Below are positions 3,538-60,325 of a DNA stretch of 64,000 nt, one piece after another. Made by a program: the position numbers and the translations under genes. The notes beneath the pieces are model-generated. The model was given only the letters and a program-made list of their open reading frames with translations, did not search any database and was not told the DNA's origin. Every line of letters starts with the position of its first letter. The stretch's first letter is position 1. The DNA lies in assembly GCF_002224645.1 (NCBI RefSeq), contig NZ_CP022121.1, positions 124,001-188,000 on the forward strand, written 5' to 3'. Source of the DNA: Dehalobacterium formicoaceticum (GTDB taxonomy: Bacteria > Bacillota > Dehalobacteriia > Dehalobacteriales > Dehalobacteriaceae).

Positions 3538-3550
3538 GGAGAAAAGGCTC

Positions 3551-3614: not shown

Positions 3615-3646
3615 GAATCACAATAAACGATAAGGAGGATTTTTGA

Positions 3647-3742: not shown

Positions 3743-3758
3743 AGGAGGATAATTTTTT

Positions 3759-3836: not shown

Positions 3837-3857
3837 CAGGAAGGTGGAGGAAAAAAT

Positions 3858-8043: not shown

Positions 8044-8105
8044 ATTCAGTATCCAACGGTTGATCGCTCCCATTGCTTTTAAGTTAAAAACAGGAGGTTA
8101 TCGAT

Positions 8106-8741: not shown

Positions 8742-8752
8742 GGGGGATTTTT

Positions 8753-18453: not shown

Positions 18454-18583
18454 AGATGCACCTCCTACCTGTGGCGATTGCCGATTCTATGAAAAAAGCC
18501 GCCCTTTTTACAGGACGGCAATGGTTCTGGAGCAATTTCCCCTTGATGGGCTGCTGCTTGATTTTATTTTTCTGTTTCTTCAC
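18425..18583 (-). CDS. Possible 52-residue leader peptide overlapping the primase-like gene
   Basis: GTG start with GGAGG six bases upstream; product begins with KKQKNKIKQQPIKGK and is very basic with three cysteines. It overlaps the start of the 18453 gene by 29 bases, and its coding region contains a terminator-like hairpin (18492-18519). This arrangement resembles a leader peptide whose translation could control readthrough. No homologue recognised; may be spurious. Confidence 0.4.
   Translation of the reverse strand: MKKQKNKIKQQPIKGKLLQNHCRPVKRAAFFIESAIATGRRCIYGCLCAFYR
18492..18519 (-). terminator. Terminator-like hairpin upstream of the primase-like gene
   Basis: Leftward: GCCGTCC (18519-18513), loop, GGGCGGC (18504-18498), followed by TTTTTT. 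It lies about 40 bases before the start codon at 18453, the same arrangement as before virB4, virB6 and other genes of this element. Confidence 0.6.
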
Positions 18584-18599
18584 AGTTATCCTCCAATCG

Positions 18600-36218: not shown

Positions 36219-36237
36219 GTGTTTCACCTCCCGGTCG

Positions 36238-36291
36238 AGTGATATTATATGGCTTGTTTTCATTTGTTATATTTGCCACTATAATATCACT
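36238..36291 (-). promoter_or_regulatory. AbiE promoter region with palindromic operator
   Basis: Perfect 12-bp inverted repeat AGTGATATTATA (36238-36249) and TATAATATCACT (36280-36291), 30 bases apart. Leftward the proximal arm contains TATAAT, a possible -10. Fits AbiEi autorepression. Confidence 0.7.
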
Positions 36292-36367: not shown

Positions 36368-36573
36368 AATTTGCGGCAACATATGGTACGATAACTTTTA
36401 ACAAGTATTTGAATTGCTAATTATTTATAATCTGTACAGTAATTAAAGGCATCCGTAAACTCCTGCTGCAGCCAAATTACGGAGATTATCGGCAAGCACT
36501 TTATCTCATATGTGCAACTTATATCAGGTAATTGTCTGTGAGAATTGATATACTGGAGAAAGGAGTGAAGCAA

Positions 36574-36915
36574 ATGTCTGTTCAAACAATAGAAACAATG
36601 GCAAAGTGGGTAGAAAATAACATAACAGAAAGCCCAAGCCTGCAAGATATGTCATCATATGTTGGTTATTCACCGTATTACTGCTCTACAAAGTTTCGGG
36701 AGCACATGGGTATGACATATAAACAATTTCTTGCCCAATGTAAATTAAAAGCTGCTGCTAATGATCTTTGCATAACCAATGACAGAATAACCGATATTGC
36801 TTTTCGATATGGGTACTCGTCATCTGAAGCGTTTGCAAGAGCTTTTTCACAAGCGTTTCAATGCTCGCCACGCCAATATCGGAAAACTTCCGGTGTTTCT
36901 CTTAGCTCACCTTAG
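36574..36915 (+). CDS. AraC-family DNA-binding protein (DNA-binding domain only)
   Basis: About 113 residues from ATG 36574 (AGGAG upstream). Two HTH motifs of the AraC/XylS type: SLQDMSSYVGYSPYYCSTKF and DIAFRYGYSSSEAFARAFSQ, ending in FQCSPRQYRK. There is no effector-binding domain, as in the MarA/SoxS group. First gene of a rightward AT-rich cargo cluster. It may act on the repeated leader elements of this cluster (inference). Confidence 0.88.
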   Translation: MSVQTIETMAKWVENNITESPSLQDMSSYVGYSPYYCSTKFREHMGMTYKQFLAQCKLKAAANDLCITNDRITDIAFRYGYSSSEAFARAFSQAFQCSPRQYRKTSGVSLSSP

Positions 36916-36964
36916 TCTATAGGGCGTATTGCTCCCTCCGAATTTGTAAATGCGAGGAGATAAA

Positions 36965-37840
36965 ATGTCTGACAAGTTTGGAAGAAATGATCTCTGCTGG
37001 TGTGGCAGCGGTCGAAAATATAAGAAATGTCATGGCCCTATTGATGAGCAAATTGAAATCTACCGCTTAAAGGGATATGAAGTGCCTTATCGAAAATTGC
37101 TTAAAACAAAACAACAGATTGAAGGTATTCGGGAAAGCGGCAAACGAAACATCGCTTTACTGGATTTCATTGCAAATTATGCGGTTGATGGAATCACCAC
37201 GGAAGAGCTTGACCGGCTTATCTTCGAAAAAACCAAGGAACTGGGAGGCGTTCCAGCAACACTCAATTTTGACGGATACCCTAAGAGCGTGTGTATCTCA
37301 ATTAATGATGTTGTATGTCATGGTATCCCCTCTGATCGTATATTCCTGCGAAACGGCGATATTGTAAATATTGATGTGTCTACAATTTATAACGGATTTT
37401 TTTCAGATTCTTCACGCATGTTTTGCATTGGTGCTGTTTCCGCTGAGAAACAAAAACTGGTTGATGTTGCGAAAGAGTGTGTGGAGCTGGGCATTGAACA
37501 GGTAAAACCGTGGGGATTTCTTGGTGATGTTGGGCAAGCTGTTCAAGACCATGCAAGGGAAAATGGATATTCTGTCGTTCGAGAAATCGGAGGCCACGGT
37601 ATTGGTCTACAATTTCATGAAGATCCTTGGGTCGGTTATGTGACAAAGCAAGGAACAGGAATGCTCTTAGTCCCAGGACTTGTTTTTACTGTAGAGCCTA
37701 TGATAAATATGGGAAAATCCAATATAGTAACAGATAAATGCGATAATTGGACTATTCGCACTGCTGATGGGAAGCCTTCTGCGCAATGGGAAAAACAGGT
37801 GTTAGTAACCGAAACTGGTTATGAGGTGTTGGCATATTAA
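36965..37840 (+). CDS. Type I methionine aminopeptidase with N-terminal SEC-C zinc motif
   Basis: About 291 residues from ATG 36965 (GAGGAG five bases upstream). N-terminal SEC-C motif GRNDLCWCGSGRKYKKCHG, then the pita-bread fold: metal ligands in GDIVNIDVS, FSDSSRMF, GGHGIGLQFHE and FTVEPMIN. Removes the initiator Met from nascent proteins. SEC-C-tagged MetAPs are known as an extra isoform beside the housekeeping Map. Follows the AraC gene by 49 bases; why it is on a mobile element is unclear, perhaps as an inhibitor-resistant copy. Confidence 0.93.
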   Translation: MSDKFGRNDLCWCGSGRKYKKCHGPIDEQIEIYRLKGYEVPYRKLLKTKQQIEGIRESGKRNIALLDFIANYAVDGITTEELDRLIFEKTKELGGVPATLNFDGYPKSVCISINDVVCHGIPSDRIFLRNGDIVNIDVSTIYNGFFSDSSRMFCIGAVSAEKQKLVDVAKECVELGIEQVKPWGFLGDVGQAVQDHARENGYSVVREIGGHGIGLQFHEDPWVGYVTKQGTGMLLVPGLVFTVEPMINMGKSNIVTDKCDNWTIRTADGKPSAQWEKQVLVTETGYEVLAY

Positions 37841-37940
37841 TGAACAGTTAGGAATAACCAGAATTTCTTATTATGAGCATAATGAAAACCTAAATGAGCA
37901 GACCCAGCTCCTTGCAGAACTGGACCTACTCATTATTACT

Positions 37941-38142
37941 ACATGCCAAGAATAGTCCAGAGTATCCTTGCATAAGGGTGGTGAACGGACTTTTTTCATA
38001 GTATCTGTGTCCTTTCCATTGTTCATATTTGTTTGATTGAAAGTTCCGATTTACTATGGTAAACTCACTTTATATATCTACCGTGTAAAACTTTTGTGAA
38101 ACGGTAGCATGGGAAATTAACGCTCGGTGAGCAAGTTTATAT
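37941..38142 (+). repeat. Long leader repeat, copy 1 (upstream of the ABM-like gene)
   Basis: About 202 bases highly similar to 38625-38829. Order of elements: hairpin CAAGAATA-N8-TATCCTTG, a conserved AT-rich stretch, palindrome TTTACTATGGTAAA overlapping a possible -35 (TTTACT, 17-base spacer, TATATC), then a hairpin CTACCGT / ACGGTAG. It ends about 20 bases before the ATG. Stretch 37841-37940 before it holds an imperfect hairpin (AATGAG...CTCATT). Confidence 0.85.
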
Positions 38143-38164
38143 AATGTGCGAGGTGGTGCAATAA

Positions 38165-38512
38165 ATGTTTAATGAAATTTGTATCTATGAGGCAAAGATT
38201 GAAAAGCAAGAGGAAATTGAGCAACTTATGAAAGAGGTTGCCGCCTTTTATATGGAGCAGGATGGTGTTATTGAAGTTAGATATATCAAACGCACCCACC
38301 GCCAAACAGATTTTAATGCCGTTAAAGAAGGGGCATTGCCTGTTCGCCTCACACGCAATGTAGGCAAAGTCACTTATGTTTTACATTGGACTGTTAGAGA
38401 TGAAGAAACTCACGCAAGGGTGTCAAAGTTAGGGTTAGAGCATTTTTACAAGCGGTGGAACAGATGCTTAACCACTATGCCAAAAATTATTTTGGGTGAA
38501 AACATTGTGTAA
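38165..38512 (+). CDS. ABM-like (dimeric alpha-beta barrel) small protein
   Basis: 115 residues. FNEICIYEAKIEKQEEIEQL, VAAFYMEQDGVIEVRYIKRT and YVLHWTVRDEETHARVSKLG resemble antibiotic biosynthesis monooxygenase/ferredoxin-like barrels, small homodimers that oxidise or bind small molecules or haem. No catalytic residues can be assigned. It follows leader repeat copy 1 with GAGGTGGTG before the ATG, and is ended by a terminator at 38582. Confidence 0.65.
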   Translation: MFNEICIYEAKIEKQEEIEQLMKEVAAFYMEQDGVIEVRYIKRTHRQTDFNAVKEGALPVRLTRNVGKVTYVLHWTVRDEETHARVSKLGLEHFYKRWNRCLTTMPKIILGENIV

Positions 38513-38581
38513 GGGTATGAGCACACCCTCTGTTAGTGTTTAACTTCACCTACACAATAAAATCTGACTTATCACGAAATT

Positions 38582-38620
38582 GAGCCGTTGCATCTAACTT
38601 GACGCGACGGCTCTTGCTTT
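38582..38620 (+). terminator. Terminator after the ABM-like gene
   Basis: GAGCCGT (38582-38588) and ACGGCTC (38607-38613), extended by TGC/GCG, followed by TTGCTTT. It sits just before leader repeat copy 2, so each gene of the island is an independent unit. Confidence 0.7.
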
Positions 38621-38624
38621 GTCT

Positions 38625-38829
38625 ACATGCCAAGAATAGTCCAGAGTATTCTTGCATAAAGACAGTGAACGTATTTTTTCTTTCATAGTAACTGTGTCCT
38701 TACTATTGTTCATATTTGTTTGATTGAAAGATCCGCTTTACTATGGTAAACTTACTTTATATATCTATCGTGCAAAACTTTTGTGAAACGGTAGCACGAG
38801 AAATTAACGCTCAGTAAGCAAATTTATAT
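38625..38829 (+). repeat. Long leader repeat, copy 2 (upstream of the helical-repeat gene)
   Basis: About 205 bases, second copy of the 37941-38142 element. First hairpin arms are perfect here (CAAGAATA / TATTCTTG). The TTTACTATGGTAAA palindrome and TTTACT-17-TATATC promoter-like pair are kept; the last hairpin is CTATCGT / ACGGTAG, a T-G wobble version of copy 1. Confidence 0.85.
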
Positions 38830-38847
38830 TAGCTTTGAGGTGATATT

Positions 38848-39294
38848 GTGCATAACATTCAAGACTTGGTTTATGGGTTATCGAATAATGATGATAAAAA
38901 GGCTTATGAATGTTTAAAGCAACTGAAAAGTGAAAGCAGTCAGTCCGATGCCGTGTACCCTTTTTTTGACATATTTGCAGATATGCTCGATGATGAAAAT
39001 TCTTATGTCAGAACAAGAGGCATTGTTTTGATTGCTGTTAATGCACAATGGGATAGCGACTATAAAATAGATGAAATTATCGATAAATATCTAAAGCATA
39101 TTACAGACGATAAGCCGATTACTGCACGGCAATGCATTAAGGTGCTACCTGTTATAGCAAAATACAAGCCAGATTTAAGGCAGGATATATTGAATGCACT
39201 GCATCGTGCTAATCCGACAAGATACAAGGAAAGTATGCAATCGCTGGTAGTAAAAGATATTCAAAAATGCTTAAACGATATTGAAAAGCTATAA
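38848..39294 (+). CDS. HEAT-like helical-repeat protein
   Basis: 148 residues, GTG start with GAGG upstream. Helical pairs such as VYGLSNNDDKKAYECLKQL, FADMLDDENSYVRTRGIVLI and PITARQCIKVLPVIAKYKPD suggest HEAT-type repeats, as in small proteins annotated SufBC-like. Function unknown. Preceded by leader repeat copy 2 and ended by a strong terminator. Confidence 0.7.
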   Translation: MHNIQDLVYGLSNNDDKKAYECLKQLKSESSQSDAVYPFFDIFADMLDDENSYVRTRGIVLIAVNAQWDSDYKIDEIIDKYLKHITDDKPITARQCIKVLPVIAKYKPDLRQDILNALHRANPTRYKESMQSLVVKDIQKCLNDIEKL

Positions 39295-39363
39295 CCAAGC
39301 AAAATGAGCATTCACTTGATATGAGGCCTTTGCTTCCTACTAAAGCTAAATTCGATTACTAAT

Positions 39364-42740: not shown

Positions 42741-43285
42741 AACCTTGGTGTGTATCCAGCGCTGGTCTTGACCTTGATGGTCATGGGCGGCAGCAGCTGT
42801 CCGCCAAAGGATACGGGAACCTCCAGCAGGATGGTGCTGTCCGCCTCAAAGCGGGCGGAGGCTTGTTCACCCGATGCAAATGGCGCGTTTCGGATGTCCA
42901 CATCCAGATTCCAGACTTTAAACTCCAGCTTGCCGTTCGGGGTGCGCTTTTCATGATAGCCGCTGCTATAGGAAAGTCCAAGGATGTCGTCCAGCCGGTC
43001 ATAAATATCGCCGTAATCGAGGCTTTCCTCGAAATCTCCGGCATAGGGCTGATACGCGCCCGAATAGCCCTCCCGCACACCGTGGTACACGTCATCGTAA
43101 TTCTCCACCACCATGGAAATGACAGCTGCCTGCACTGCATCCCGAACACCCTGCGCTATGATCATCAGCCGGAAATATTCAGAAATGCCGGTGAAGATGA
43201 TGACCAGCGACAGGGTGATTGCGATGATCAACGGAAAGCCCGCGCCGCCTTTTCCCCGTAGGATTTGCTTGATTTTATCCGTCAT
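42737..43285 (-). CDS. TadE/TadG-like pseudopilin
   Basis: 182 residues. Short basic leader with GKGGAGFPLIIAITLSLVI, then one membrane helix, then a beta-rich extracellular domain. The GGAGF plus hydrophobic helix looks like a prepilin-type start, as in TadE/F/G minor pilins. Overlaps the upstream DUF4320 gene by 4 bases; last gene of the Tad-like cluster. Confidence 0.75.
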   Translation of the reverse strand: MTDKIKQILRGKGGAGFPLIIAITLSLVIIFTGISEYFRLMIIAQGVRDAVQAAVISMVVENYDDVYHGVREGYSGAYQPYAGDFEESLDYGDIYDRLDDILGLSYSSGYHEKRTPNGKLEFKVWNLDVDIRNAPFASGEQASARFEADSTILLEVPVSFGGQLLPPMTIKVKTSAGYTPRF

Positions 43286-43680
43286 TTCCAGTAGACCTCG
43301 CTCTTTCCCGCCGCGTCCGCCCGCAGCGTAATGGGGAACGAGCCGAAGCCGCCAAACAGTCCGATGTTGGTCTGGTAGGTGACCGTTACCGTGACTTCCT
43401 CGTTCAGCTGGATTCTGCCGGTTTCAGACCACTCTACGCTGGGAGAAAGCCCGGTCTTTTCCCGTAGAAGCTGCTCACGGCGGCTGGTTTCGCCGCCCAC
43501 CTGTCCGGCAATTTCCGCCTCCCGGATGAGCTCTGTGGCAAAGGTGTCCAGCTGCTGCTTTTGGATATAGACGGGGAACACCTTCACGGCAAGGGCAATG
43601 ACCAGCATGGCGCACAGTACCAGCACCGCCACATCAAGATAGCCCTCGCCGCGCTTGTTTCTCAGAAGTTTTCTCAGCAC
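43282..43680 (-). CDS. DUF4320/TadE-like pseudopilin
   Basis: 132 residues. LLRNKRGEGYLDVAVLVL: a basic leader, RGEGY-L-D and a hydrophobic helix, the prepilin-like start of TadE family proteins (cleavage after RG would put Asp at +5). Soluble domain ends FPITLRADAAGKSEVYWK. The same RG(E/D)GY(I/L)D motif occurs in the two pilin-like proteins at 49973 and 54569. Likely minor subunit of the Tad pilus. Confidence 0.8.
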   Translation of the reverse strand: MLRKLLRNKRGEGYLDVAVLVLCAMLVIALAVKVFPVYIQKQQLDTFATELIREAEIAGQVGGETSRREQLLREKTGLSPSVEWSETGRIQLNEEVTVTVTYQTNIGLFGGFGSFPITLRADAAGKSEVYWK

Positions 43681-44346: not shown

Positions 44347-45219
44347 TTAGAACATCCCGGAAAGGGATGTGATGATTTCATAGACAATAACCGCCATATA
44401 GGTCATGAGAAAGCACATGAGCATGGCAAAGGAAAACACCCGGATTTTCGGCGGGATCTTCATGGCCTGCGCTTTCAGCCGCTGAAGCTCCAGCTGCTTC
44501 ATGTCGTGGGCCAGCATCTGAAAATACATCCCGCCGTCGTCCCCGCGCAGTACGCCGATCAGCCCTCTGGTAATATCCGAGAGCATGGGCGAATTGAACC
44601 TCGCCTCAAAGCGGGTCAACGCCGCCTCGTAGCTGGAGGAGCGCATATCCGCCGTGAGGATGTCAAGCTCCGCGGCGAAGTCCTCGCCTGCGTTTTTCTT
44701 GAAATTCTCCAGCATGGACAGCACGTCACGGCTGGCCTTCAGCTCCTGGGTGATGGTAGCCACAAAGCGCGGCAGCTCCTGTTCGATTTTCCCCCGCTTG
44801 GCGGAAAGCGCCTCATCCGCCTTACGGATTTCCTTGAAATAGACCAGTATGGCAGTAAACAGTACAATGGGTGCCAGCAGCGGCAGAACAATCAGGCAGG
44901 GAATGATACACAGCCCGATAGCCGCCGCCTTGACAATAGCCGTTGCCGTGAACAGCTCCGGCGAGTCGGAAAGCCCTGCCGCCGACAGCACATTTGCCAT
45001 CCGGGTTTTCTTGTATGCATCCATGCGGAGATACCGGGAGAGCCCGACGGCGGCGTTTCGCAGCAGGGCATCGGTGGTTTTGGGCTTTGACTTGGCCTGC
45101 TTTCCTGCCGACAGCATCGCCTTTTGGGTGGCGAGAGTGGGCAGATGCAGCAGATCGGCGGCAAGGAAAAAGAGTCCTGTCGATAGGAGGACTCCGAATA
45201 AAAACAGATAGATTGTCAT
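44347..45219 (-). CDS. tadC: TadC-like inner membrane platform protein
   Basis: About 290 residues from ATG 45219 (GGAGG five bases upstream). Three or four helices and the T2SS-F domain (KIEQELPRFVATITQELKAS). TadB and TadC form the membrane platform on which the TadA ATPase polymerises Flp pilins. Directly follows tadB with 10 bases between. Confidence 0.88.
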   Translation of the reverse strand: MTIYLFLFGVLLSTGLFFLAADLLHLPTLATQKAMLSAGKQAKSKPKTTDALLRNAAVGLSRYLRMDAYKKTRMANVLSAAGLSDSPELFTATAIVKAAAIGLCIIPCLIVLPLLAPIVLFTAILVYFKEIRKADEALSAKRGKIEQELPRFVATITQELKASRDVLSMLENFKKNAGEDFAAELDILTADMRSSSYEAALTRFEARFNSPMLSDITRGLIGVLRGDDGGMYFQMLAHDMKQLELQRLKAQAMKIPPKIRVFSFAMLMCFLMTYMAVIVYEIITSLSGMF

Positions 45220-45229
45220 GGGCTCCTCC

Positions 45230-46159
45230 TTATCTTCGATATTCAATGGGCTGGGTGAGCTTGATCACAAACGCCGTGGAAATGAAAATCACGGCGGCGC
45301 AGATGGTCAGCACCACCTGTCCCAGCGGGGTGTGCATCAGGGTGTGATACCAGTCCTGATTCAAGAAATACAAGAGCGGGATATTCCCGATGACGAGAAT
45401 CACCATAACGATGAATTCCTTTCTCGGCTCAAACACCATGTTTTCCAGCTCACCGTTGACCACCCGCATATCACTGAGCTTACTGACGATGGGCGTCAAA
45501 GTGGTTTTCAGGCTGCGGTCATGCTGGCAGGCAATGAGAGCATCGCACCACTCATGGAACACTGCGTTGTCAATTCTCGTTTTCACATCATGGAGTGCCG
45601 CCGTCACATCGGGGTCCACCAGCCGGACGCGGGACACAAAGCTCTGAAATACCGACAGCACCGGCGGGTTCAGGTACGGGAGGTTTTCCTCCACCGCCGT
45701 CAGAATATCCTCGTTTCGAAGATAGGCCGTGGTGATAATGGAAAGCGCCGTTTCCAGCTCCGCCGCAATGTCCTTTTTGAAGTGGCTGGCCGTGAGCTTC
45801 ACCCACCAGAACGGCAGGAGCATACAGCCTGCCGCCATGACAGGAACCAAAAAAAAGTTTGAGAGCATGACAGCTACCGACGCACCCACGGCAAAGAACA
45901 GCAGGGACAATGCGCAGAGCATGGGAAAGCGCGCCGACCGGCCGGTGACCTTGAGGATAGACTGCACCTCGGCAATTTCCCGGCGCAGATAGGACTTCTT
46001 TTTCCTGTGGGTGGTTTCATTGATTTCATCCCGGAGGGCTTTGGGCTGATCGGTCAGCCTGCCGAAAATGGCGGTTGTAAATGCCATAGGGGTCAGCCCA
46101 AGCAAAATGAAAGAGCCTGCGATCATGCCGATGCAGGCGATTAAAAGTACCGTCGTCAT
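45230..46159 (-). CDS. tadB: TadB-like inner membrane platform protein
   Basis: 309 residues; N- and C-terminal helices (VLLIACIGMIAGSFILLG; VVLTICAAVIFISTAFVI) with a T2SS-F domain (DIAAELETALSIITTAYLRN). Overlaps tadA by 4 bases. Role as for TadC. Confidence 0.88.
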   Translation of the reverse strand: MTTVLLIACIGMIAGSFILLGLTPMAFTTAIFGRLTDQPKALRDEINETTHRKKKSYLRREIAEVQSILKVTGRSARFPMLCALSLLFFAVGASVAVMLSNFFLVPVMAAGCMLLPFWWVKLTASHFKKDIAAELETALSIITTAYLRNEDILTAVEENLPYLNPPVLSVFQSFVSRVRLVDPDVTAALHDVKTRIDNAVFHEWCDALIACQHDRSLKTTLTPIVSKLSDMRVVNGELENMVFEPRKEFIVMVILVIGNIPLLYFLNQDWYHTLMHTPLGQVVLTICAAVIFISTAFVIKLTQPIEYRR

Positions 46160-47733
46160 GCGGTTTGCGCCTCCTTTCTCCGCAAACTCTCAATGACCGC
46201 CTGCGGCATGCCGTTTTCCAGCAGCCGCTTGGCAAGGCTGTCCGAGAGGGTGTTGACCTGCGCATGGTGCCCCTCAATAATGAATTTTCCGTCCTCCATG
46301 CGGTTTTCGGTAATGACATACTGAAACAGCGGACGGAAACGCCTTGTGCCGTCGGGCAGGATTTCGCACTCCTGAATCTCCATCATGCGGCGCTGCTTGT
46401 TTTCCAGCTGCTTGCAGAACACCACAATGGGATAGGCTTCGGTGACATAGTCCATGAGGGTCGCATCGGACATATCCACGGCGCGCTTACACAGAGACAC
46501 CATGCGGCGATAGGTGGCCTCGCAGGAATTGGAGTGGATGGTGGTCAGCACCGCCACGCCGGTTCGGGCGGCCTCCTGCGCGGCATTTGCTTCTGCACCG
46601 CGCATCTCGCCCACCACAATGATGTCCGGGTTAAAACGGAGGGCATAATCTAAAAGGTTGGTCTGGTCGATGCGCTGGCGGTCGTTATCGCTGTCACGGG
46701 TCAAGGTGTGGATGACCGAATTGACCACTTTCCCATCCTTTTCCCGCACCAGAGCCAATTCACGGGAGCCGTTCTCGATGGTATAGATGCGCTTGTTATC
46801 CGGTACGGTGGTCAGTACCCAGCCTGCCACGGTGGTTTTGCCGGAGCTGGTGGCTCCCGCTACGCAGACCGAAATCCCGTAGCGGATGCAAAGGGATAAA
46901 AAGTCCAGCATTGGGTCTGTCGCCGTACCGCTTCGGACAAAATCCTCTTTTTTCATACTCTGAGGGTTGACGATACGAATGGAAGCCGCCACGCCCACAT
47001 CCTCGTCCACAATGGGGCTTTTGAGGACGGCAATTCGGATGTTTTTGCTGAGATGCCCCAGCACGATGGGACTGGCGTTATCCAGCACCATGCCGCTGAT
47101 GTGCAGCATCCTGCGAATCACATTGACAGCATGCTGGGGGCTTTCAAAGCGTTCCTCCAGCTTGACGGTGCGGCCATCCGAATACTGCACCTCAATATCC
47201 CGCCACGAATTGATGTCGATTTCCTCAATTCCTGTGCCGAAGATGTATTTGGTCAGAAACCCAAACTCTGCCATTTCGGTGTAGAGGGCGTCCGCCAGCC
47301 TGCCGCCGCTCATGCCGTTGACTGACACCCGGTGATCCTGCAGGAATTTCTGGATATACCGCTTCATCTGCACCTTGGCGTCCTCGCCGCCTGCGGTAAG
47401 GAGGGTGCTGTAATGCTCGGAAATGTACGCCTGCACCTCGGCAAGCACCGAGGAGAAATCCTTTCCCTCCGTTTCCGGGGTAAAGAACAGACCATGCGCA
47501 CGCAGCGTGCGGTTGTCACACAACGGCGCGGCTTCCTGCTCATCCGGCGGATTCAAAACATCCACATCGGAACCGAACTGCAAGTTTGCAAACCTCTCAG
47601 CCGTGGGTTCGGAGGTATTCCCGACTTCGGTGATCAGCTCTGGTTCTGTGGATAACGGATGACTGCCGTTTTTTTCTGTGCGTGCCGCCTTATTCTGAAA
47701 TGCCGGTGCGCTTCGTTTTTTGCCCAACTTCAT
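46156..47733 (-). CDS. tadA: TadA/CpaF-type secretion ATPase
   Basis: 525 residues. Walker A VAGATSSGKTTVAGW near residue 290, Asp box TIENGSRELAL, Walker B PDIIVVGEMRGAEA, His box TTIHSNSCEATYRR. The pattern of N-terminal domain plus the GEMRG-type Walker B is the CpaF/TadA subfamily of VirB11-like ATPases. It powers assembly of the Tad pilus; it could in principle also replace VirB11 in conjugation. Overlaps tadB downstream and tadZ upstream by 4 bases each. Confidence 0.93.
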   Translation of the reverse strand: MKLGKKRSAPAFQNKAARTEKNGSHPLSTEPELITEVGNTSEPTAERFANLQFGSDVDVLNPPDEQEAAPLCDNRTLRAHGLFFTPETEGKDFSSVLAEVQAYISEHYSTLLTAGGEDAKVQMKRYIQKFLQDHRVSVNGMSGGRLADALYTEMAEFGFLTKYIFGTGIEEIDINSWRDIEVQYSDGRTVKLEERFESPQHAVNVIRRMLHISGMVLDNASPIVLGHLSKNIRIAVLKSPIVDEDVGVAASIRIVNPQSMKKEDFVRSGTATDPMLDFLSLCIRYGISVCVAGATSSGKTTVAGWVLTTVPDNKRIYTIENGSRELALVREKDGKVVNSVIHTLTRDSDNDRQRIDQTNLLDYALRFNPDIIVVGEMRGAEANAAQEAARTGVAVLTTIHSNSCEATYRRMVSLCKRAVDMSDATLMDYVTEAYPIVVFCKQLENKQRRMMEIQECEILPDGTRRFRPLFQYVITENRMEDGKFIIEGHHAQVNTLSDSLAKRLLENGMPQAVIESLRRKEAQTA

Positions 47734-48548
47734 ATGCCGAACACCTCCTTTGCGATTTTTTCGATTTCTTTTTTAAACGGGCGGCTGTCCTTCAGGGACA
47801 AATCCGCCAGTAGATTCCCGGCAAGGTACTGTTCCTCCAGCTCCGGCGAGTGGGTCAGGGTAAAGGCTACGGAGCCCAGCGCCTGTCCGATCTGCTCCCC
47901 GGCCTGCCGGGGTTTTACGTTCCCGGCAACCTTGTACTGCTTCTCCGCATCCCACTTGGAATCCCGGAGCAATGGGAGCTGGCTGGAGAGATAGCTCACG
48001 GATTTCAGATCGGCGTTCGCAAGGCGCAGAACACTGTCGGCCTCCATGAGCGCCACGGCGGAGAGAATGTCATTGGCGATATAGCTGCCGCAGTCCGCCA
48101 CCACGAAAGGGGCGATTTTTCGCAGATTATCCAGAAGTTCTTGTGCCTGAGTCTGCTCATAAGGCGGGTAGGTGTACTCGTTCTCACCCTTTTTCATGCC
48201 GAGGATGGTGAGGTGTTTGTGCTTTTTCAGCGTCACCAGATTGTGCTTGATGAGCGGCTCCGTCACATGGGCGGCGGCTAGAATACTGCCCAGCGAATGC
48301 TCACCCTCCAGCTCCGAGGGCGGGCAGATGCAGGGCAGCATGGGCGCGGTCATATCGCAGAGCAGCAGCACCACGTTTTTCTTCTGGTCAGCAAGATGCT
48401 TTGCAATCTTTACGGCAGTGACGGTCTTGCCGCTGCCGGGGGAACCCCAAACCGCAAGGATGCCGTCCTGCGGCTCCTGCTGCGGCGAGGCATCCTCCTT
48501 TGGGGCTTGGCGGGTGAAGATGCCCTTTTTCTTGAAATTCAGCATCAT
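47730..48548 (-). CDS. tadZ: TadZ/CpaE-like MinD-family protein
   Basis: 272 residues with a P-loop WGSPGSGKTVTAVKIAKHLA, a MinD/ParA-type ATPase fold with VLLLCDMTAPML. TadZ proteins localise the Tad machine at a pole or patch. An ATPase-like motif is present, though many TadZ are degenerate. The start overlaps the CpaB stop. Some related proteins are annotated as ParA-like; the tad context favours TadZ. Confidence 0.85.
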   Translation of the reverse strand: MMLNFKKKGIFTRQAPKEDASPQQEPQDGILAVWGSPGSGKTVTAVKIAKHLADQKKNVVLLLCDMTAPMLPCICPPSELEGEHSLGSILAAAHVTEPLIKHNLVTLKKHKHLTILGMKKGENEYTYPPYEQTQAQELLDNLRKIAPFVVADCGSYIANDILSAVALMEADSVLRLANADLKSVSYLSSQLPLLRDSKWDAEKQYKVAGNVKPRQAGEQIGQALGSVAFTLTHSPELEEQYLAGNLLADLSLKDSRPFKKEIEKIAKEVFGI

Positions 48549-49369
48549 TCCACCCCGCTTTCCGCAGTTGCTTCGGATGCAGTGCTTTCCTCCGGTTCCT
48601 GAGATTCGGAAGTGCTGTCCTGCACCGGCTCCACGGGATACAGCGCCGCAACGACCTTGTCCTGTGCCTCGATAAATTTGGCGGTGTTGGCAGGCGTGCC
48701 GCGGTAAACGAGGGACAGGTGGAGTTTGCCGTCAGACTCCAGCTCCGCCAGCGTCTTGCTCTGCTCCGGGGACACCAGCAGGGTCACCGTGGAGGGCAGC
48801 TCCTTTTCGTCCCCGGTTTCTGTTTCCGTCTGCGCTCCGGTGTTGGCGTCATAGCCGCTGCCTGCGGTGACGGCGATAACCTCCACATATTTCAGCTCGG
48901 CGGGGATCACGGTGGAGCCCTGCTTTTTGTAATCCGGGGCAATCACCGACACGATATCGCCGCTCTGGAGCTTGCCGGACAGTCCGTTTGCAAAGCTCTT
49001 GATGGTCACCGACATGGCCTGCTTGGTACCGTCCAGACTGTAAAGATAGGTATTTTCTGCAGCGGGAGTATCAGACAGCTTGGTGTTTAAGATATAGTCC
49101 CCGACGGAAAGATCGGCGGTGGCATATTTGCCCACGACAGTTTCACTCTGGCGAAGAACATTGTCGGGCAGACCAAAGCCGCCCACCTCCACGGTCTGCA
49201 CCATCTCTCTGGTGACTTCCTCGCCTGCCTTGATTTCCTTTACGACACGGACAATTTCGGTTTTCTGACTAACGGACTGGTTAAACAGCGGCGTCACGCC
49301 GAAGCAGATGAGCAGGGACAAAAGGATGCAGATCACGCCGACCACCGTGCGGTTTTTGAAAAGGCTCAT
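48545..49369 (-). CDS. cpaB: CpaB/RcpC-like SAF-domain protein
   Basis: 274 residues. N-terminal membrane helix (VVGVICILLSLLICFGV), then the SAF segment VKEIKAGEEVTREMVQTVEV and DYILNTKLSDTPA, and an RcpC-type beta domain; C-terminal acidic Ser/Thr-rich tail. CpaB/RcpC is an extracytoplasmic Tad component; in Gram-positives without a secretin it probably works in the wall. AAGGAGG upstream. Confidence 0.87.
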   Translation of the reverse strand: MSLFKNRTVVGVICILLSLLICFGVTPLFNQSVSQKTEIVRVVKEIKAGEEVTREMVQTVEVGGFGLPDNVLRQSETVVGKYATADLSVGDYILNTKLSDTPAAENTYLYSLDGTKQAMSVTIKSFANGLSGKLQSGDIVSVIAPDYKKQGSTVIPAELKYVEVIAVTAGSGYDANTGAQTETETGDEKELPSTVTLLVSPEQSKTLAELESDGKLHLSLVYRGTPANTAKFIEAQDKVVAALYPVEPVQDSTSESQEPEESTASEATAESGVE

Positions 49370-49399: not shown

Positions 49400-49534
49400 T
49401 TAGAAGCTGGAGCTGTATCTGCGGTGTTTCACTGCTTTCACAGCCTTGGGGATCAGGGTGGCGGCTGCCAGCGCAACGGCGGCAATACCGGCAACAATGA
49501 GGGTCTTTTTTCTGCTGATATGGATTTTTTTCAT
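49400..49534 (-). CDS. 44-residue basic membrane peptide of the tad operon
   Basis: KKIHISRKKTLIVAGIAAVA followed by a short helix and basic tail KAVKHRRYSSSF. GGAGG lies 10 bases upstream and the start overlaps the end of the prepilin peptidase gene. A small membrane protein between tadV and cpaB; not recognised, could be a minor pilin or assembly factor. Confidence 0.65.
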   Translation of the reverse strand: MKKIHISRKKTLIVAGIAAVALAAATLIPKAVKAVKHRRYSSSF

Positions 49535-49983
49535 AGGATGTTTCCTCCAATTCTTAGAATGGTTATGGCAAGAAAGCCGAGGGACAAAAACGGCGCCATA
49601 GGCAGAGATGCCTGTGACGCCTTCCGCGGCTCCAGCTTGCGGAGCCGTCTGATCAGTTGGTTGATGAGATAAAAAAAGAGGGATGCCGTCAGGCCGAGCA
49701 GCAGCCCGGCCGTGCATCCCACAAAGCCCAGCACCATGCCTGCGGCGGCGGTGAGCTTGATATCCCCGCCGCCGATGCCCTCCGGCTTATATAAAGCAAC
49801 AAGAAACATAGGCAGTGCCGCAAAGATACCCCAAAACCTGACGGGGCTGAAATCCATCAGCCCCGTCAGTGCAATCAGGAGGCAGATGCTGTCCGGGATA
49901 ATCCGCTTGCGGAGATCCCATACAGAAGCCGCCAGCAGCAGACAGAAAAAAAGCACCGCCTGAAAGGTGCTATCAGCCTGCAT
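49531..49983 (-). CDS. tadV: TadV/CpaA-type prepilin peptidase (A24 family)
   Basis: About 150 residues from ATG 49983 (AAGGA upstream; overlaps the pilin gene end). Two catalytic aspartates of the A24 family: SVWDLRKRIIPD near residue 20 and GIGGGDIKLTAA (GxGD). Short form lacking the methylase domain, as in TadV. Cleaves the leaders of Flp-type pilins and pseudopilins. Six helices predicted. Confidence 0.9.
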   Translation of the reverse strand: MQADSTFQAVLFFCLLLAASVWDLRKRIIPDSICLLIALTGLMDFSPVRFWGIFAALPMFLVALYKPEGIGGGDIKLTAAAGMVLGFVGCTAGLLLGLTASLFFYLINQLIRRLRKLEPRKASQASLPMAPFLSLGFLAITILRIGGNIL

Positions 49984-50203
49984 AGTTGAACATTTCCTTA
50001 ATGCGCTGCACAAGGGTAGGCAGCACCGTTTCCCCGAACAGAGCATACAGCCCCGCAAGGAGCAGAGCGCCCAAGACCACGGCAATCAGGATTTTGATGG
50101 CGGTGTCAATGTAGCCGTCCCCGCGGCTACCGGAAAGGATGCGGCGGGTTCTGGCGGCGGTCATGACCGCCTTGCATTTCAGCTTACAAATGAGATGCTT
50201 CAT
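49973..50203 (-). CDS. Flp-like pilin (DUF6133-type), copy 1
   Basis: 76 residues: basic leader, SGSRGDGYIDTAIKIL, a hydrophobic helix VVLGALLLAGLYALF, and the end QRIKEMFNYAG. The RGDGYID motif before the helix is a probable prepilin cleavage site (cleavage after RG puts Asp at +5). The last 46 residues are identical to those of the second copy at 54569. Likely the major pilin of the Tad-type pilus. Just upstream of the peptidase gene. Confidence 0.82.
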   Translation of the reverse strand: MKHLICKLKCKAVMTAARTRRILSGSRGDGYIDTAIKILIAVVLGALLLAGLYALFGETVLPTLVQRIKEMFNYAG

Positions 50204-50215
50204 GGATGTTCCCCC

Positions 50216-53200
50216 TTATTCAAAATGGTACGTCACCGAGTAGGTGATGTTGGATTTGTTGTACATGCACGAGTGATTGGTGTAATAATAGAACTCCAGC
50301 TGCGTATACACGCCAGCACCGAGGGTGCGGGTAAAGGTGATGCCGTTGGAGGTGGTGCCGTAGTCCAGCTGATCCCACTGCCCGGTCAGCCTGTTGTAGC
50401 CGCGCACTCTGCCGAAATCCGAGCCGCTGTGCCCGCTGACAGGCGGTACCGTAAAGGTATATTCCGTGATGGTGGCGCCCTCGATGCCGTTTTCCATGAT
50501 CACGGAATCGGGGCCGGTGAGCGTCATGCCACCGCCGCCGTTGGAGTCCGCCACAAAGAACACGATGGCGGCCCAGGGGGATTCAGCCCCTGCGGAATCC
50601 ACGGCTTTGACACGGACCACATTCTTTCCACGGGGATAGGTCTGTGTTTCGGAACTTCTGCCCTCCCAAATCAGGGTGACGGAATCGCCGTCCGGGTCGG
50701 AGCTGGCGGCCGTGATGGTGACCGGCGTTCCCGGCGCTACGCTGTTGCCGTTCGGGGTTCGGGTAATCACCGGCGCTGTCGGCGCGGAATTTGCCACGGT
50801 AAAGGTCTTGGATACCCACTGCGAGTACAGTCCCGTTGCATCCTTGGCGCGAACCTTTACGGTATGCGTGCCGGGCGCATAGTAACCGTCCGCCGCTTTG
50901 TTATCCCATTCCAGCGTGGTGGCGTCGCCGTCCGCATCAGCGGCTGTGGCGCTTATATTGACAAGGAATTTGCCGTTATTCGCTGTGCGGGTGGGGGATG
51001 CAGTCAAGGTAACAGTAGGCGCAGAGCTGGTGATGGTAAAGGTCTTTTCTGTCCATGGGGAATATGCTCCGGCGATATCCTTTGCGCGGACATGGATGGT
51101 GTGGGTTCCCGGCGCATAGTAGCTGTCCGCTGCCTTGTTATCCCACTCCAGCGTGGTGGCGTCGCCATCCGCATCGGTAGCTGTCGCACTGATATTGACA
51201 AGAAATTTGCCGTCCTTCACCGTGCGGGTCGGCTCGGCGGTCAGGGTTACGGTGGGCACGGCATTGGTCACGGTAAAGGTCTTTTCTGTCCATGAGGAAT
51301 ACGCCCCGGCGATATCCTTTGCCCGGACACGGATGGTGTGGGTTCCCGGCGCATAATAGCTGTCCGCCGCAGTATCCGCATACTCCAAGGTTACCGCATC
51401 CCCATCGGGGTCTGTGGCACTGGCGGTAATGTTCACAAGAAACTTGCCGTCCTTGGCGGTGCGGGTGGGAACGGCCTCTACCACGGGGGCATTCGGCGCG
51501 ATGTTGGTGACCGTGATGTGTTCCGAATAGATGGTGACTCGTCCTTCGCTGTCGGTCACGGAGGCAGTCAGGGTAAATGTGCCGGTATCACGGATGGCGA
51601 TTTTCCCGCCGTCATTGCCGAGGGTTCCCTGATACTGTGCGGGATTGCCGTCCTTTTGCAGTGCCCAAGCTACGGCATAGCTGCCGAGGTGCTGCACATC
51701 CTTTGCGGCAACCTCAAACTCCGTGCCGTAGTGAACAGTCTGTGGCATGGTAAATGCGTACTGCACCACCGGCAGGATGCGAATGCTCTCGCTGTGGGAA
51801 TAGCTGCGCTTCAAATAATCGGTCATGGTGGCGGTGAGAACATACTCGCCATTATCCTTGAAGGTGATTTTGCCGCCCTGTGCGTTGAGCCCGCCACTGA
51901 ACGCCTCGGAGAGCGGAAGGCTCTTGCCGTCCTTTGTCACAGACCACTCCACCGGCAGAACCTGATTGTTGCCGTGGGTTCTAAGGTTGAGGGCGGTGTC
52001 GGTGTAGGCAAATTCGGGGAGTTCAAAGCCGAGGGTCAGCACCGGCATAACCTCGCACTTTTCCTTACTTTCGTACAGAAATACACGGCCGGTTTCATCG
52101 GTAACTCTGGCTGTCAGCTCATAGACACCGGCTCGTTTGAAACGAATTGTGCCGCCGTCGTTTGTAAGTGTTCCGTCCACATAGGTCGGCCAGTCCTGAA
52201 ACCCGTAGGTGTTGTCCACCAGCCATTCGATTGTCAGACCGTCCAGATCGGCTGTTTCGGTTTTGACCGTAATATCCGTATCGGTGTGGACATATTCAGG
52301 CAGACTGTAGCGGACGGCAGGCACGGGATACACCTTGAAGCCCTGCTCATAGCGGTAGGTTCTGCCGCCGTCGTCGGTGAATTCCGCTTTCAGAACATAG
52401 CTGCCCTTGGTGCGGACCTTCAGCTCACCGCCGCTGTTGCCCAGCGTACCCTCGGCTGCATCGGTGAGGGATACTTCCTTGCCATCACGGAGCAGCGTCC
52501 ATTTTGCCGTATGGCTGCCGATTTCCCCGAACACTGCCTCTACCATCACGGTGTTGTCGGTGTGGAAGATTTCCGGCAGATAAAAGCCCGCGGAGCCTAC
52601 CGGGTAGACGGTAATATTGGCGGTACCGGTAAACACTCGGCCGGTGGCGTCGGTGACAGAGGCAGTCAGGGCATACACGCCTTTTTCCTTAAAACGGATG
52701 CTGCCGTCAGAGAGCGTCCCCTCAATAAAGGCGTCGGTTTCGGCAGGCTCGCCGTTGCGGGTCAGGGTGTAGATTACTGTAAGGCCGTCCGCTTCTTTTG
52801 TTTCTGTCTGTAGAGTGATGGTTTTGTCCGTATGAGAAACGGCCGGGAGGGTGAGCTTGACCTCCGCCACCGGGTAGACGGTGATGTTATCCTGTGCGGT
52901 GATAACCTTACCCAGCTCATCTGTAATAGAGGCTGTCAGCGTATAACTGCCCTTTTCCTTGAACAGCACCGTGCCGCCGGTAGCGGTCAGCTCTCCGGAG
53001 AGGGCCGTTTCCATATCCACAGCCGTGCCGTCCTTTTCAAGGGACCACACCACCGCATTGGAACCGAGATTTTCGGTCGTCAGCTCCACCGCTACGGATT
53101 TGTCGGTATGGGTGGTTTCCGGCAGCGTGAACGCCGCCGTCACCACTGGGTAGATGCTGATGGTCTGCTCATGGGTCACCGTGACGCCCCGGCTGTTTTT

Positions 53201-54169
53201 TGCCGTGGCAATCAGGGTAATACTGCCGGTCTGTGTGAATTTCACTTTGCCGCCGTTTTTATCAAGGGTACCGTCTGTCAGCCCGGAAAGCTCCACGGGC
53301 AGGCCGTTTTTCAGGGCGGACCATGTCACACCGCTCACAGAACGGCTTTCCGGCTTGATCTCAATTTCATCGGCGGTATAGGCAGTTTTCGGCAAGGTGA
53401 AGCTGAACTGCGGGGCGGGAACATAAGAGCTGCCGCCACCGGAACCGCCGCTGGAGCTGCCTCCGCCAGAGGGCTTATCCTCCGGCTTGGCAGGAGTCGT
53501 CGGCTTGGGCGGTTCTTCCTTCTTGATCTGCTCTTTGGCCTTTTCTGTATCCACCAGCATTTCAAAGGCTTCGGCGCGGGTGGCCTCGCCGTCCGGTTTG
53601 ACCGTACCGTCCGGGTAGCCGTCTACAATGCCGTATTCCTTGCCGGTGCAGATACTGGATTTATCCGCCTCGGAGAGTGTGCCGTCATCGGAAAAGCCGG
53701 TGACGCAGGGGCAGGAGGCGTCATGTTCCCCCTTACCGATGGCCCGCACCAGCATACGGATCATTTCCATACGGGAAATGGGCTGATCCGGTTGAAATTC
53801 TATGCCGAAATCGTCCTTTTGGATGATTCCAGCGATGATGAGCGCTTCAATATCCTGCTCCGACCAGTGTCCGGCAATGTCGGTGAAGCGAATGGTAACC
53901 TCGCTTTCCTCCGGTTCCGGCAGCTCCATGGTTCTGGAAACCAGCGCGGCAAATTCCCCTCTGGTGATGATGTCATCCGGGTGCGCCAGCCCGTCTGGAT
54001 AACCGCTGATGACGCCTTTTTCCGTGAGAATCTGAATGGCTTCCTCCGCCCAATGCCCCTTGGCATCCTCAAAATACCGGTTTACCGCATAAGCGCTGCC
54101 TGCCAGCAGGGAAAGCACAAGGCAAACGGCGAGGACGAGACCCAGCGGCTTTTTCATTTTCTTCTTCAT
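50216..54169 (-). CDS. Giant SLH-domain surface protein with Ig-like repeats
   Basis: 1317 residues from ATG 54169 (GGAGG five bases upstream). Signal peptide (LGLVLAVCLVLSLLAG-SAYA), three SLH domains (about residues 30-215; GHWAEEAIQILTEKGVISGY is the first) that bind pyruvylated wall polysaccharide, a Pro/Ser/Gly linker, seven Ig-like repeats of about 85 residues (pattern LP..x.HTD..v.v.t...GTL...GG.i.FK..G.Y.LTA..TD..GR), four PKD-like repeats, three nearly identical with a 79-residue period, and a beta-rich C-terminal domain. It should be an adhesin that holds donor and recipient or a surface. It sits between two copies of the pilin gene. Confidence 0.93.
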   Translation of the reverse strand: MKKKMKKPLGLVLAVCLVLSLLAGSAYAVNRYFEDAKGHWAEEAIQILTEKGVISGYPDGLAHPDDIITRGEFAALVSRTMELPEPEESEVTIRFTDIAGHWSEQDIEALIIAGIIQKDDFGIEFQPDQPISRMEMIRMLVRAIGKGEHDASCPCVTGFSDDGTLSEADKSSICTGKEYGIVDGYPDGTVKPDGEATRAEAFEMLVDTEKAKEQIKKEEPPKPTTPAKPEDKPSGGGSSSGGSGGGSSYVPAPQFSFTLPKTAYTADEIEIKPESRSVSGVTWSALKNGLPVELSGLTDGTLDKNGGKVKFTQTGSITLIATAKNSRGVTVTHEQTISIYPVVTAAFTLPETTHTDKSVAVELTTENLGSNAVVWSLEKDGTAVDMETALSGELTATGGTVLFKEKGSYTLTASITDELGKVITAQDNITVYPVAEVKLTLPAVSHTDKTITLQTETKEADGLTVIYTLTRNGEPAETDAFIEGTLSDGSIRFKEKGVYALTASVTDATGRVFTGTANITVYPVGSAGFYLPEIFHTDNTVMVEAVFGEIGSHTAKWTLLRDGKEVSLTDAAEGTLGNSGGELKVRTKGSYVLKAEFTDDGGRTYRYEQGFKVYPVPAVRYSLPEYVHTDTDITVKTETADLDGLTIEWLVDNTYGFQDWPTYVDGTLTNDGGTIRFKRAGVYELTARVTDETGRVFLYESKEKCEVMPVLTLGFELPEFAYTDTALNLRTHGNNQVLPVEWSVTKDGKSLPLSEAFSGGLNAQGGKITFKDNGEYVLTATMTDYLKRSYSHSESIRILPVVQYAFTMPQTVHYGTEFEVAAKDVQHLGSYAVAWALQKDGNPAQYQGTLGNDGGKIAIRDTGTFTLTASVTDSEGRVTIYSEHITVTNIAPNAPVVEAVPTRTAKDGKFLVNITASATDPDGDAVTLEYADTAADSYYAPGTHTIRVRAKDIAGAYSSWTEKTFTVTNAVPTVTLTAEPTRTVKDGKFLVNISATATDADGDATTLEWDNKAADSYYAPGTHTIHVRAKDIAGAYSPWTEKTFTITSSAPTVTLTASPTRTANNGKFLVNISATAADADGDATTLEWDNKAADGYYAPGTHTVKVRAKDATGLYSQWVSKTFTVANSAPTAPVITRTPNGNSVAPGTPVTITAASSDPDGDSVTLIWEGRSSETQTYPRGKNVVRVKAVDSAGAESPWAAIVFFVADSNGGGGMTLTGPDSVIMENGIEGATITEYTFTVPPVSGHSGSDFGRVRGYNRLTGQWDQLDYGTTSNGITFTRTLGAGVYTQLEFYYYTNHSCMYNKSNITYSVTYHFE
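50790..51500. repeat. Three tandem 237-bp coding repeats
   Basis: Period of exactly 237 bases: the same GCGCAT landmark occurs at 50875, 51112 and 51349. Encodes the 79-residue PKD-like repeats of the SLH protein. High DNA similarity suggests recent duplication or gene conversion and possible length variation. Confidence 0.85.
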
Positions 54170-54178
54170 AGGCACCTC

Positions 54179-54535
54179 CTATATTCCGCCCATGACAGGC
54201 TGGCCTTGCTCCTGCTGGGCGGGGGATTCCTGTTTCTGCGCGGCGGTCTGTCCCTGAGTCAGCGCCTGCTGGTAAGCGCCGAGGACAGCCTTGTCGAATT
54301 CCGCTTTGGCCTCTTTGGTGCAGGGAAAGCAGATATCCTTGTACTCGCCGTTTCCGGCTCTGTAGCTTGGCATGGAGATAAACAGCCCCTTGGAGCCCTC
54401 CATGATTTTGATGCCCCGCACGGCGAAATCGCCGTAGACATTGACCGAGGCGGTGGCCTTGCAGTTGCCCTCCGGACGGATGGAGTGGATTTTCACATCG
54501 TACTTGGGGGCGGATGGTGTCGTATTGTTAGGCAT
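54179..54535 (-). CDS. SpoVG-family protein
   Basis: 118 residues. VKIHSIRPEGNCKATASVNV, DFAVRGIKIMEGSKGLFISM and KDICFPCTKEAKAEF are the SpoVG core (about 90 residues), a small RNA- or DNA-binding regulator. A C-terminal Gln-rich extension AQKQESPAQQEQGQ ends in PVMGGI and is not part of usual SpoVG. On mobile elements SpoVG-like proteins are common, role unknown. Confidence 0.9.
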   Translation of the reverse strand: MPNNTTPSAPKYDVKIHSIRPEGNCKATASVNVYGDFAVRGIKIMEGSKGLFISMPSYRAGNGEYKDICFPCTKEAKAEFDKAVLGAYQQALTQGQTAAQKQESPAQQEQGQPVMGGI

Positions 54536-54568
54536 GATCTTTCCTCCTTCTCAAAATGTCCGGCATCT

Positions 54569-54799
54569 TTAACCGGCGTAATTGAACATCTCTTTAATGC
54601 GCTGCACAAGGGTTGGCAGCACCGTTTCCCCGAACAGGGCATACAGCCCCGCAAGGAGCAAAGCGCCCAAAACAACGGCAATCAGAATTTTGATCGCGGT
54701 GTCAATGTAGCCCTCCCCGGCGTTCCCCGTGAGGATGGAGCGACTTTTGGCAGCTGCCGTGCCGATTTTTTTCTTAAGCTTGCAAAATAGGTTCTTCAT
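54569..54799 (-). CDS. Flp-like pilin (DUF6133-type), copy 2
   Basis: 76 residues from ATG 54799 (GGAGG upstream). Leader differs from copy 1 (KNLFCKLKKKIGTAAAKSRS) but the mature part, from GEGYIDTAIKIL to FNYAG, is the same except for one residue near the cleavage site. DNA differences between copies in this part are almost all synonymous, which indicates purifying selection rather than very recent copying. Located on the other side of the SLH gene. Confidence 0.82.
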   Translation of the reverse strand: MKNLFCKLKKKIGTAAAKSRSILTGNAGEGYIDTAIKILIAVVLGALLLAGLYALFGETVLPTLVQRIKEMFNYAG

Positions 54800-54830
54800 T
54801 TTTTTCCTCCGTTCTAATGATGAGGGCATG

Positions 54831-54853
54831 AAAAAAGACAGCCGACGGCTGCC
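54831..54853 (-). terminator. Terminator-like hairpin upstream of pilin copy 2
   Basis: Leftward GGCAGCCG / CGGCTGTC with a tight loop then TTTTTT, about 32 bases before the pilin start and overlapping the stop of the YodL-like gene. Confidence 0.5.
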
Positions 54854-55410
54854 TACATACGCATACCCATGGTTTGGGTTTGCTCCGGTTCCCCGAAGCT
54901 GATTTTCTGAAATCCAAAGCGGTCGCAGTAGTGAAATTCGCTGCCCTCTGCGTCATACAGCTCCACCACATCGGACATGGACAGGGAGTGTCCGTCATAA
55001 CCGGGCGGATGATTCACATTGCATCTTGTGTAGATGGCTTCGAGATCGTTGGTATCCAGCTGGCCGTCATAGGCAACGCGGTAATGCTCCGGGGACGGCT
55101 CCCCGAACTGCCGCACCGTTTCCTCATAGGAGATAAACTTCATATACACGTCCGTATCCGGCTTCAATTGCCAGATGCGGACATTTTTGAGCGGAGCGGC
55201 GGCTTCAGCCATGCCGCCCATCCGTTCCCCCGCGGCAAGGCGCTCCATCACGCCGTCCGTCCACTGCGGGGTCAGGCTGCGGCTTTTGAGCCATGTGGTC
55301 AGCTCGTCGTTTCGGAAGATGCTGTCCACCACCGCCTTTTCTTTTTCTGTATATCCGGCCGGGTTTCCGTAGTAGGAAATGAGGCCGTTTTTCAGGGTGA
55401 TTCCCGGCAT
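54853..55410 (-). CDS. YodL-domain protein
   Basis: 185 residues. Central KNVRIWQLKPDTDVYMKFIS, YRVAYDGQLDTNDLEAIYTR, HPPGYDGHSLSMSDVVELYD and FHYCDRFGFQKI form the YodL domain found in large polyvalent proteins of Firmicutes conjugative elements. N-terminal region (LISYYGNPAGYTEKEKAVVD) is a helical domain. Function unknown, possibly antirestriction or host takeover. Ends EPEQTQTMGMRM. Confidence 0.82.
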   Translation of the reverse strand: MPGITLKNGLISYYGNPAGYTEKEKAVVDSIFRNDELTTWLKSRSLTPQWTDGVMERLAAGERMGGMAEAAAPLKNVRIWQLKPDTDVYMKFISYEETVRQFGEPSPEHYRVAYDGQLDTNDLEAIYTRCNVNHPPGYDGHSLSMSDVVELYDAEGSEFHYCDRFGFQKISFGEPEQTQTMGMRM

Positions 55411-60249: not shown

Positions 60250-60325
60250 TGGTGGAGATAAGGGGATTCGAACCCCTGGCCTCCTGAATGCCATTCAGGC
60301 GCGATCCCAACTTCGCCATATCCCC
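60250..60325 (-). tRNA. tRNA-Ala (anticodon GGC)
   Basis: 76 bases including an encoded CCA. Acceptor GGGGATA pairs with TATCTCC; anticodon stem CCTGA/TCAGG with loop ATGGCAT, anticodon GGC at 60292-60290; T-arm AGGGG-TTCGAAT-CCCCT. Its 3' end faces the conjugative element, the usual arrangement for integration by a tyrosine recombinase, though no integrase gene is in the window. Confidence 0.96.

Follow-up and report, generated by a model that had tools for sequence, protein, structure and literature searches.

The stretch of Dehalobacterium formicoaceticum DNA analysed here, referred to as the window (64,000 nucleotides (nt); all coordinates are positions within it unless a locus is named), carries on a conjugative element two copies of a short pilin-like gene of the DUF6133 family (PF19629). 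Both lie on the minus strand and encode 76 amino acids, the downstream copy, termed pilin A, at 49973..50203 (PF19629, E=1.2e-36) and the upstream copy, pilin B, at 54569..54799 (E=3.4e-36). The length of B is counted from the ATG behind GGAGG, and a start at the ATG further upstream, at 54829, would extend it to 86 residues; its product consists of a 27-residue leader followed by a core that begins GEGYIDTA. As DNA, the genes are direct repeats in the same orientation (copy 1 at 54573..54799 and copy 2 at 49977..50203, minus strand), with 81% identity over 227 nt and a start-to-start spacing of 4596 nt, and the 3'-terminal 153 nt are identical at 136/153 positions (89%), the longest uninterrupted match being 23 nt. 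The two proteins are identical from Tyr-31 to the C-terminus, after the GDG/GEG motif, and 14 residue differences fall in the leader and motif. An earlier note on this DNA had proposed two pilin genes here, with mature parts that are the same over 46 residues and leaders that differ, which the protein comparison bears out; its further remark that the DNA differences are mostly synonymous holds for the mature part (13/13 differing codons) but not for the leader, where 14/22 differing codons are non-synonymous. This likeness is not a matter of chance, because A as a query matches B at E=1.8e-34 and every other match in the 3.77-Mb genome is no better than E=0.003.

DUF6133 is the only Pfam family that matches A and B, even at E-values up to 10. 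The subunit has a basic leader, a glycine before the core and a 19-residue stretch with a mean hydropathy of 2.73, and it may work like a Flp pilin, with a leader that would be cleaved and subunits that would polymerise, though it stands outside the Flp/Fap family. We suggest that DUF6133 be annotated as the probable pilin subunit of this Tad-type system. Between the copies, also on the minus strand, lie a gene of the SpoVG family (spoVG, 54179..54535; PF04026, E=1.4e-28) and a gene for a surface protein of 1319 residues with SLH and Ig/PKD-like domains (50216..54175; SLH E=4.3e-30, PKD), whose SLH part matches the S-layer protein Sap and which we take as a putative adhesin. The copies had been described as bracketing a giant adhesin gene; direct repeats do flank it, but they enclose two genes, and the protein is large rather than giant. 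Downstream of A, the same strand encodes an A24 prepilin peptidase (49531..49983; PF01478, E=5.5e-13), CpaB/RcpC (48545..49369; PF16976, E=1.6e-18), a CpaE-like P-loop ATPase (47730..48548; weak Pfam matches), a CpaF/TadA-type ATPase (46156..47733; PF00437, E=9.4e-26, and the TadA-like TIGR03819, E=5.4e-34, under its curated cut-off) and, in two open reading frames (ORFs) at 44347..46159, TadB/TadC-like membrane proteins named by gene order, the TadC-like ORF being without a Pfam match. With the CpaF/TadA-type ATPase, RcpC/CpaB and the A24 peptidase all present, the machinery is of the Tad kind, and the subunit is not filed as a Flp pilin because the Flp/Fap family is not matched.

The peptidase gene begins inside pilin A. 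Its ATG lies within the 3' end of A (49973-49983), overlapping the last codons, and arises from a Tyr codon TAT followed by G; the synonymous Tyr codon is TAT in A and TAC in B, a difference held apart by the overlap. Across the loci compared below, most of which have the peptidase directly behind the downstream pilin, this internal ATG is found in 45/49 rows for pilins that precede the peptidase (42/46 without re-fetched loci) and in only 3/32 rows for pilins that precede spoVG (3/31 without them). Recombination between the direct repeats always keeps the 5' end of B and the 3' end of A, so that a whole pilin and the peptidase start remain, and the pilus operon would survive deletion of the adhesin because the peptidase start sits inside the 3' end of A.

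Comparative loci were collected by a search of genome contigs anchored on CpaF (46156..47733), which gave 50 loci; 49 further stretches were added by genome, and PF19629 positions were mapped for 23 of the loci, in the 21 genomes from which these come. The family is matched in 11/25 genomes of the genus of G046, in 11/200 genomes of the family of G057 and in 2/43 genomes of the host's own class, the window's genome counted. The order O185-pilin B-spoVG-SLH gene-pilin A-peptidase-CpaB-CpaE-CpaF is conserved across the near-family loci, with O185, a YodL-like gene (54853..55410, minus strand), as the conserved flank upstream of the pair. There are 20 complete pilin pairs, 17 spaced by 4.58-4.85 kb and three (L010, L019 and L023) by 7.1-7.9 kb, the wide spacing being due to an insert at the 3' end of the adhesin gene. 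All 20 hold the adhesin, which makes 21 elements with both copies and the adhesin when the window is added, and the near-family adhesins are orthologues with 83-93% amino-acid identity among best matches. When near-family elements truncated at the end of a contig (G047:C297, G047:C84 and G054:C11/C27) are set aside, 21 of the 22 fully resolved elements keep the adhesin. As a separate observation, the last codons of the adhesin gene are an insertion hot spot in the near family, with insertions of 2.5-3.3 kb in L010 (4161-7507), L019 (4738-7404), L023 (5109-7603) and L055 (3656-6183); three of these hold group II-intron-like reverse transcriptase ORFs, and that of L010 a recombinase-like ORF named from reading.

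The sole exception among the 22 is L025, a locus from a metagenome-assembled genome (MAG), which has neither spoVG nor the adhesin. Compared with L024, from the isolate Clostridium sporosphaeroides DSM 1294, its DNA is 99.7% identical in the 3.3 kb on the upstream side and 98.9% in the 9.4 kb on the downstream side, and the flanks on both sides are 98.8-99.7% identical to L024 and L026 and 96.9-98.8% identical to L031. The missing length of 4584 nt equals exactly the pilin repeat spacing in L024. What remains is a single hybrid pilin with one clean switch point, in which 58 B-type informative sites are followed by 29 A-type sites with zero exceptions; it is the one PF19629 match in the L025 genome, which gives no adhesin match elsewhere. 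This allele supports a loss of the adhesin through recombination between the pilin copies, as read from the sequences of L025 and its relatives. Further deletion alleles were not found by the CpaF search of viral contigs, and no further near-family deletion was seen in the genus of G046 or the family of G057, where only five of the matching places were fetched. A pilin-pattern search of viral contigs gave one contig (L158), whose inspected stretch ends at the pilin stop, and searching with the adhesin yielded three contigs, whose inspected stretches showed no recognisable pilin; two IMG/VR contigs filed as viral, L159 and L160, carry adhesin relatives at 43-44% identity, with no pilin or Tad genes recognised in the stretches inspected. 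In plasmids the adhesin was matched only in its SLH domain or in part, and CpaF distantly; the phage search returned CpaF matches.

There are also signs of concerted evolution in the pilin cores. In 13 representatives of 18 pairs, the distance between A and B cores is 0.131 within a locus vs 0.159 between loci (p ~0.007, 20,000 label permutations), whereas the leaders are not homogenised in the permutation test (p 0.99). Core amino-acid variants are common to A and B within lineages, and in the window, L007, L012 and L017 the B leader is A-like in its 5' part and B-like at its end. Between L009 and L010, identity is 99.9% in the 7.5 kb upstream and 99.5% in the 4.6 kb downstream; pilin A departs from this, with 14 differing sites, eight in the core plus stop and six in the leader. 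L009-A equals its own B at 7/8 of the core and stop sites, but only 3/7 (codons 16 and 20 and the stop codon) seem to derive from B when set against other A copies, which is suggestive, though not proof, of conversion. Taken together, exchange between A and B copies is likely. In more distant loci with two pilins around spoVG, own-pair core distances are 0.143 (L033), 0.136 (L035) and 0.048 (L137), and the nearest other pilin core is at 0.218-0.252.

We propose, with a probability of about 0.78, that recombination has homogenised a duplicated pair of pilins and occasionally removes the adhesin in a one-way loss. On this view A and B are paralogues that supply pilin-type subunits to the Tad-like operon of a conjugative element; their leaders differ, but the mature subunit is the same. 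Now and then the cores would recombine homologously, by gene conversion or unequal crossing-over, and so remain alike, the leaders keeping their differences. The same recombination could excise the intervening segment of 4.6 kb, removing spoVG and the SLH protein in one step and leaving one hybrid pilin (B leader, A 3' end) ahead of an intact peptidase start, so that the pilus operon would persist. Several points weigh against this proposal. No pilin model in Pfam, Flp/Fap included, matches A or B at E up to 10. L025 is known from a MAG assembly, and 3-4 bases at its switch point agree with neither of the two parent-like copies (VMP in place of VLP). The core-distance signal is modest and base composition could contribute to it. 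Self-similar distant pairs are also expected from independent duplication in each lineage, and in L167, where the core distance is 0.204, the leaders too are similar. Lastly, L027 and L028 hold the adhesin with the A copy only, showing that the pair is not required.

The most probable of the rivals, though still less likely than not, is recurrent independent duplication, in which tandem copies of a spoVG-plus-pilin unit arise and disappear again in many lineages, the SLH gene having been trapped by chance between two pilins in this family. Other arrangements speak for it. The order pilin-spoVG-pilin without an SLH gene occurs in L035, L137 and L167, and in L033 with two spoVG; spoVG-pilin-spoVG occurs in L044 and L056, and three tandem pilins in L171. 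The SLH gene takes other positions in L051, L116, L118, L134, L138 and L168 and is not nearby at all in other loci; because of this, and because L027 and L028 have one pilin, adhesin and pilin pair can each exist without the other. The near-family leaders, on the other hand, differ by 0.213 between A copies and by 0.48-0.50 between A and B, so that A leaders are alike across loci and the near-family pair is old rather than duplicated anew in each element. For the distant loci, recurrent duplication is compatible with homogenisation by recombination. We also observed that DUF6133 genes form tandem arrays in more distant elements, three in L171 at 3138-3999 (G482) and four in G603:C1 at 18276-19277, and that in L153 (1675-12111; G054:C23) about 10 kb of other DNA lies between a pilin-spoVG pair and a second spoVG with the peptidase.

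A second rival, which we regard as unlikely, holds that purifying selection alone explains the protein identity, with no need of recombination, and that L025 is an assembly artefact. The differences in the mature part are indeed all synonymous, the composition confound remains in the core-distance test, and L025 is a MAG locus with odd junction bases. The core variants common to A and B within lineages nevertheless argue against selection alone. As for the assembly, collapse of the repeats is unlikely because the parent-like copies share no identical run longer than 28 nt, and L025 is probably not a mis-joined copy of the L024 locus, because the two differ at 46 downstream sites (7893-10000, 2.1 kb); the absence of another pilin or adhesin from the L025 genome also counts against an artefact.

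It is quite improbable that selection has favoured the two pilins as a bracket for recombination, with the adhesin and SpoVG forming a removable cassette of the conjugative pilus, populations holding an adhesin-free minority and the excised circle able to re-enter. Minority elements with a hybrid working pilin would then have an altered attachment or mating range, and re-entry of the circle by the same homology would also explain the exchanged leaders.

The earlier note went further and saw in the repeats a possible phase-variation device whose recombination could delete or swap the adhesin. Deletion is now represented by the natural allele L025, with no adhesin elsewhere in its genome. The swap finds no such counterpart. 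An adhesin swap bounded by the two pilins was considered and rejected, since per-gene pairwise identities in 19 near-family loci show mosaics of which the clear one, L023, breaks elsewhere, its right breakpoint lying at the group II intron at the adhesin 3' end and the mosaic extending upstream past pilin B and O185; this is no cassette exchange between pilins, and the near-family adhesins are orthologous. Nor do the repeats delimit an invertible segment, being direct and not inverted, and no inversion was found at the site. As to the expectation that relatives would show deletions or a variable adhesin, one deletion is seen and the adhesin is otherwise fixed. A switch that turns the adhesin off, or exchanges it, at a useful frequency in a population is thus very improbable. 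In its favour, same-orientation repeats flank the gene, one deletion allele exists, and the layout preserves a full pilin and the start of the peptidase in every case. Against it stand the single deletion in 22 resolved elements, the imperfection of the repeats, whose longest identical runs span only 17-38 nt in 18 pairs, the lack of a recombinase among the proteins of the locus that were scanned and the want of any evident way back. For these reasons the loss of the adhesin is probably a rare, one-way event and not a regulated switch.

The element itself carries a MobL relaxase (E=5.4e-33), a coupling protein (T4SS-DNA_transf, E=8.9e-39), an AAA_10/TraG-like ATPase (E=1.1e-10), TrbL_5 (E=1.5e-150) and ArdA, and thus has the relaxase, coupling protein and type IV secretion system ATPase by which integrative and conjugative elements are recognised. 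A tRNA-Ala(GGC) gene (60250..60325, minus strand) marks its right end; no integrase was recognised, no second att repeat was found in the window or in the 14 kb left of it, and the left end was not located. A DUF4320 protein (43282..43680, minus strand) has a weak PF19629 match (E=0.0015) and an RGEGYLD motif, and since GEGY(I/L)D is common to it and the pilins, all may be cut by the same peptidase. Elsewhere on the element, an AbiEii-type nucleotidyltransferase toxin gene (PF08843) with an adjoining partner ORF occupies 34562-36263, and a low-GC stretch at 36400-39300, without counterpart in the related element of G045 (and, from 34.1 kb on, in that of G048), holds methionine aminopeptidase-like and AraC-like ORFs named from reading alone.

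To our knowledge, Gram-positive conjugative elements usually have no known pilus, and their hold on the recipient is poorly understood. In the present case such an element carries a complete Tad-type pilus operon, SLH surface protein included, between distant clostridia, and the apparent natural adhesin-minus version offers a ready comparison for the role of the adhesin in transfer or attachment. Among open-licence PubMed Central (PMC) papers we found none on DUF6133 or this element, none joining Tad pili, integrative and conjugative elements and Firmicutes, and none joining Flp pili, conjugation and Lachnospiraceae. A Flp-pilus plasmid is described in Cutibacterium acnes (PMC5696575), likewise a mobile replicon that carries genes for Flp pili in a Gram-positive host, though in another phylum and on another element, and the part of that paper seen mentions neither an SLH protein nor twin pilins. 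The operon resembles Tad/Flp (type IVc) pilus operons in combining an A24 peptidase, CpaB/RcpC, a CpaE-like protein, CpaF/TadA, two membrane proteins and short single-helix subunits; it differs in that the subunit is a DUF6133 protein with a GEGYIDTA motif and no Flp/Fap model match, and in that the operon encloses genes for an SLH protein and SpoVG, the whole being on a conjugative element. Unequal recombination between direct repeats commonly leaves one hybrid gene and loses the intervening DNA, in deletion and concerted evolution of duplicates; here, unlike the general case, the repeats are pilin genes and the layout lets the loss spare the pilus operon. On conjugative plasmids, PilV-type adhesins vary through the R64 shufflon, and in PilV systems a dedicated recombinase reversibly swaps the adhesin ends. 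The conjugative plasmid TP114 has a type IV pilus with variable PilV adhesins (PMC9045228). Like the PilV systems, the present element joins a type IV-type pilus on a conjugative element to an adhesive part changeable by recombination; it differs in that no recombinase is seen and the observed outcome is loss of the adhesin gene. Among known systems these plasmids, with their type IV pili and shuffled adhesins, are its nearest functional parallel.

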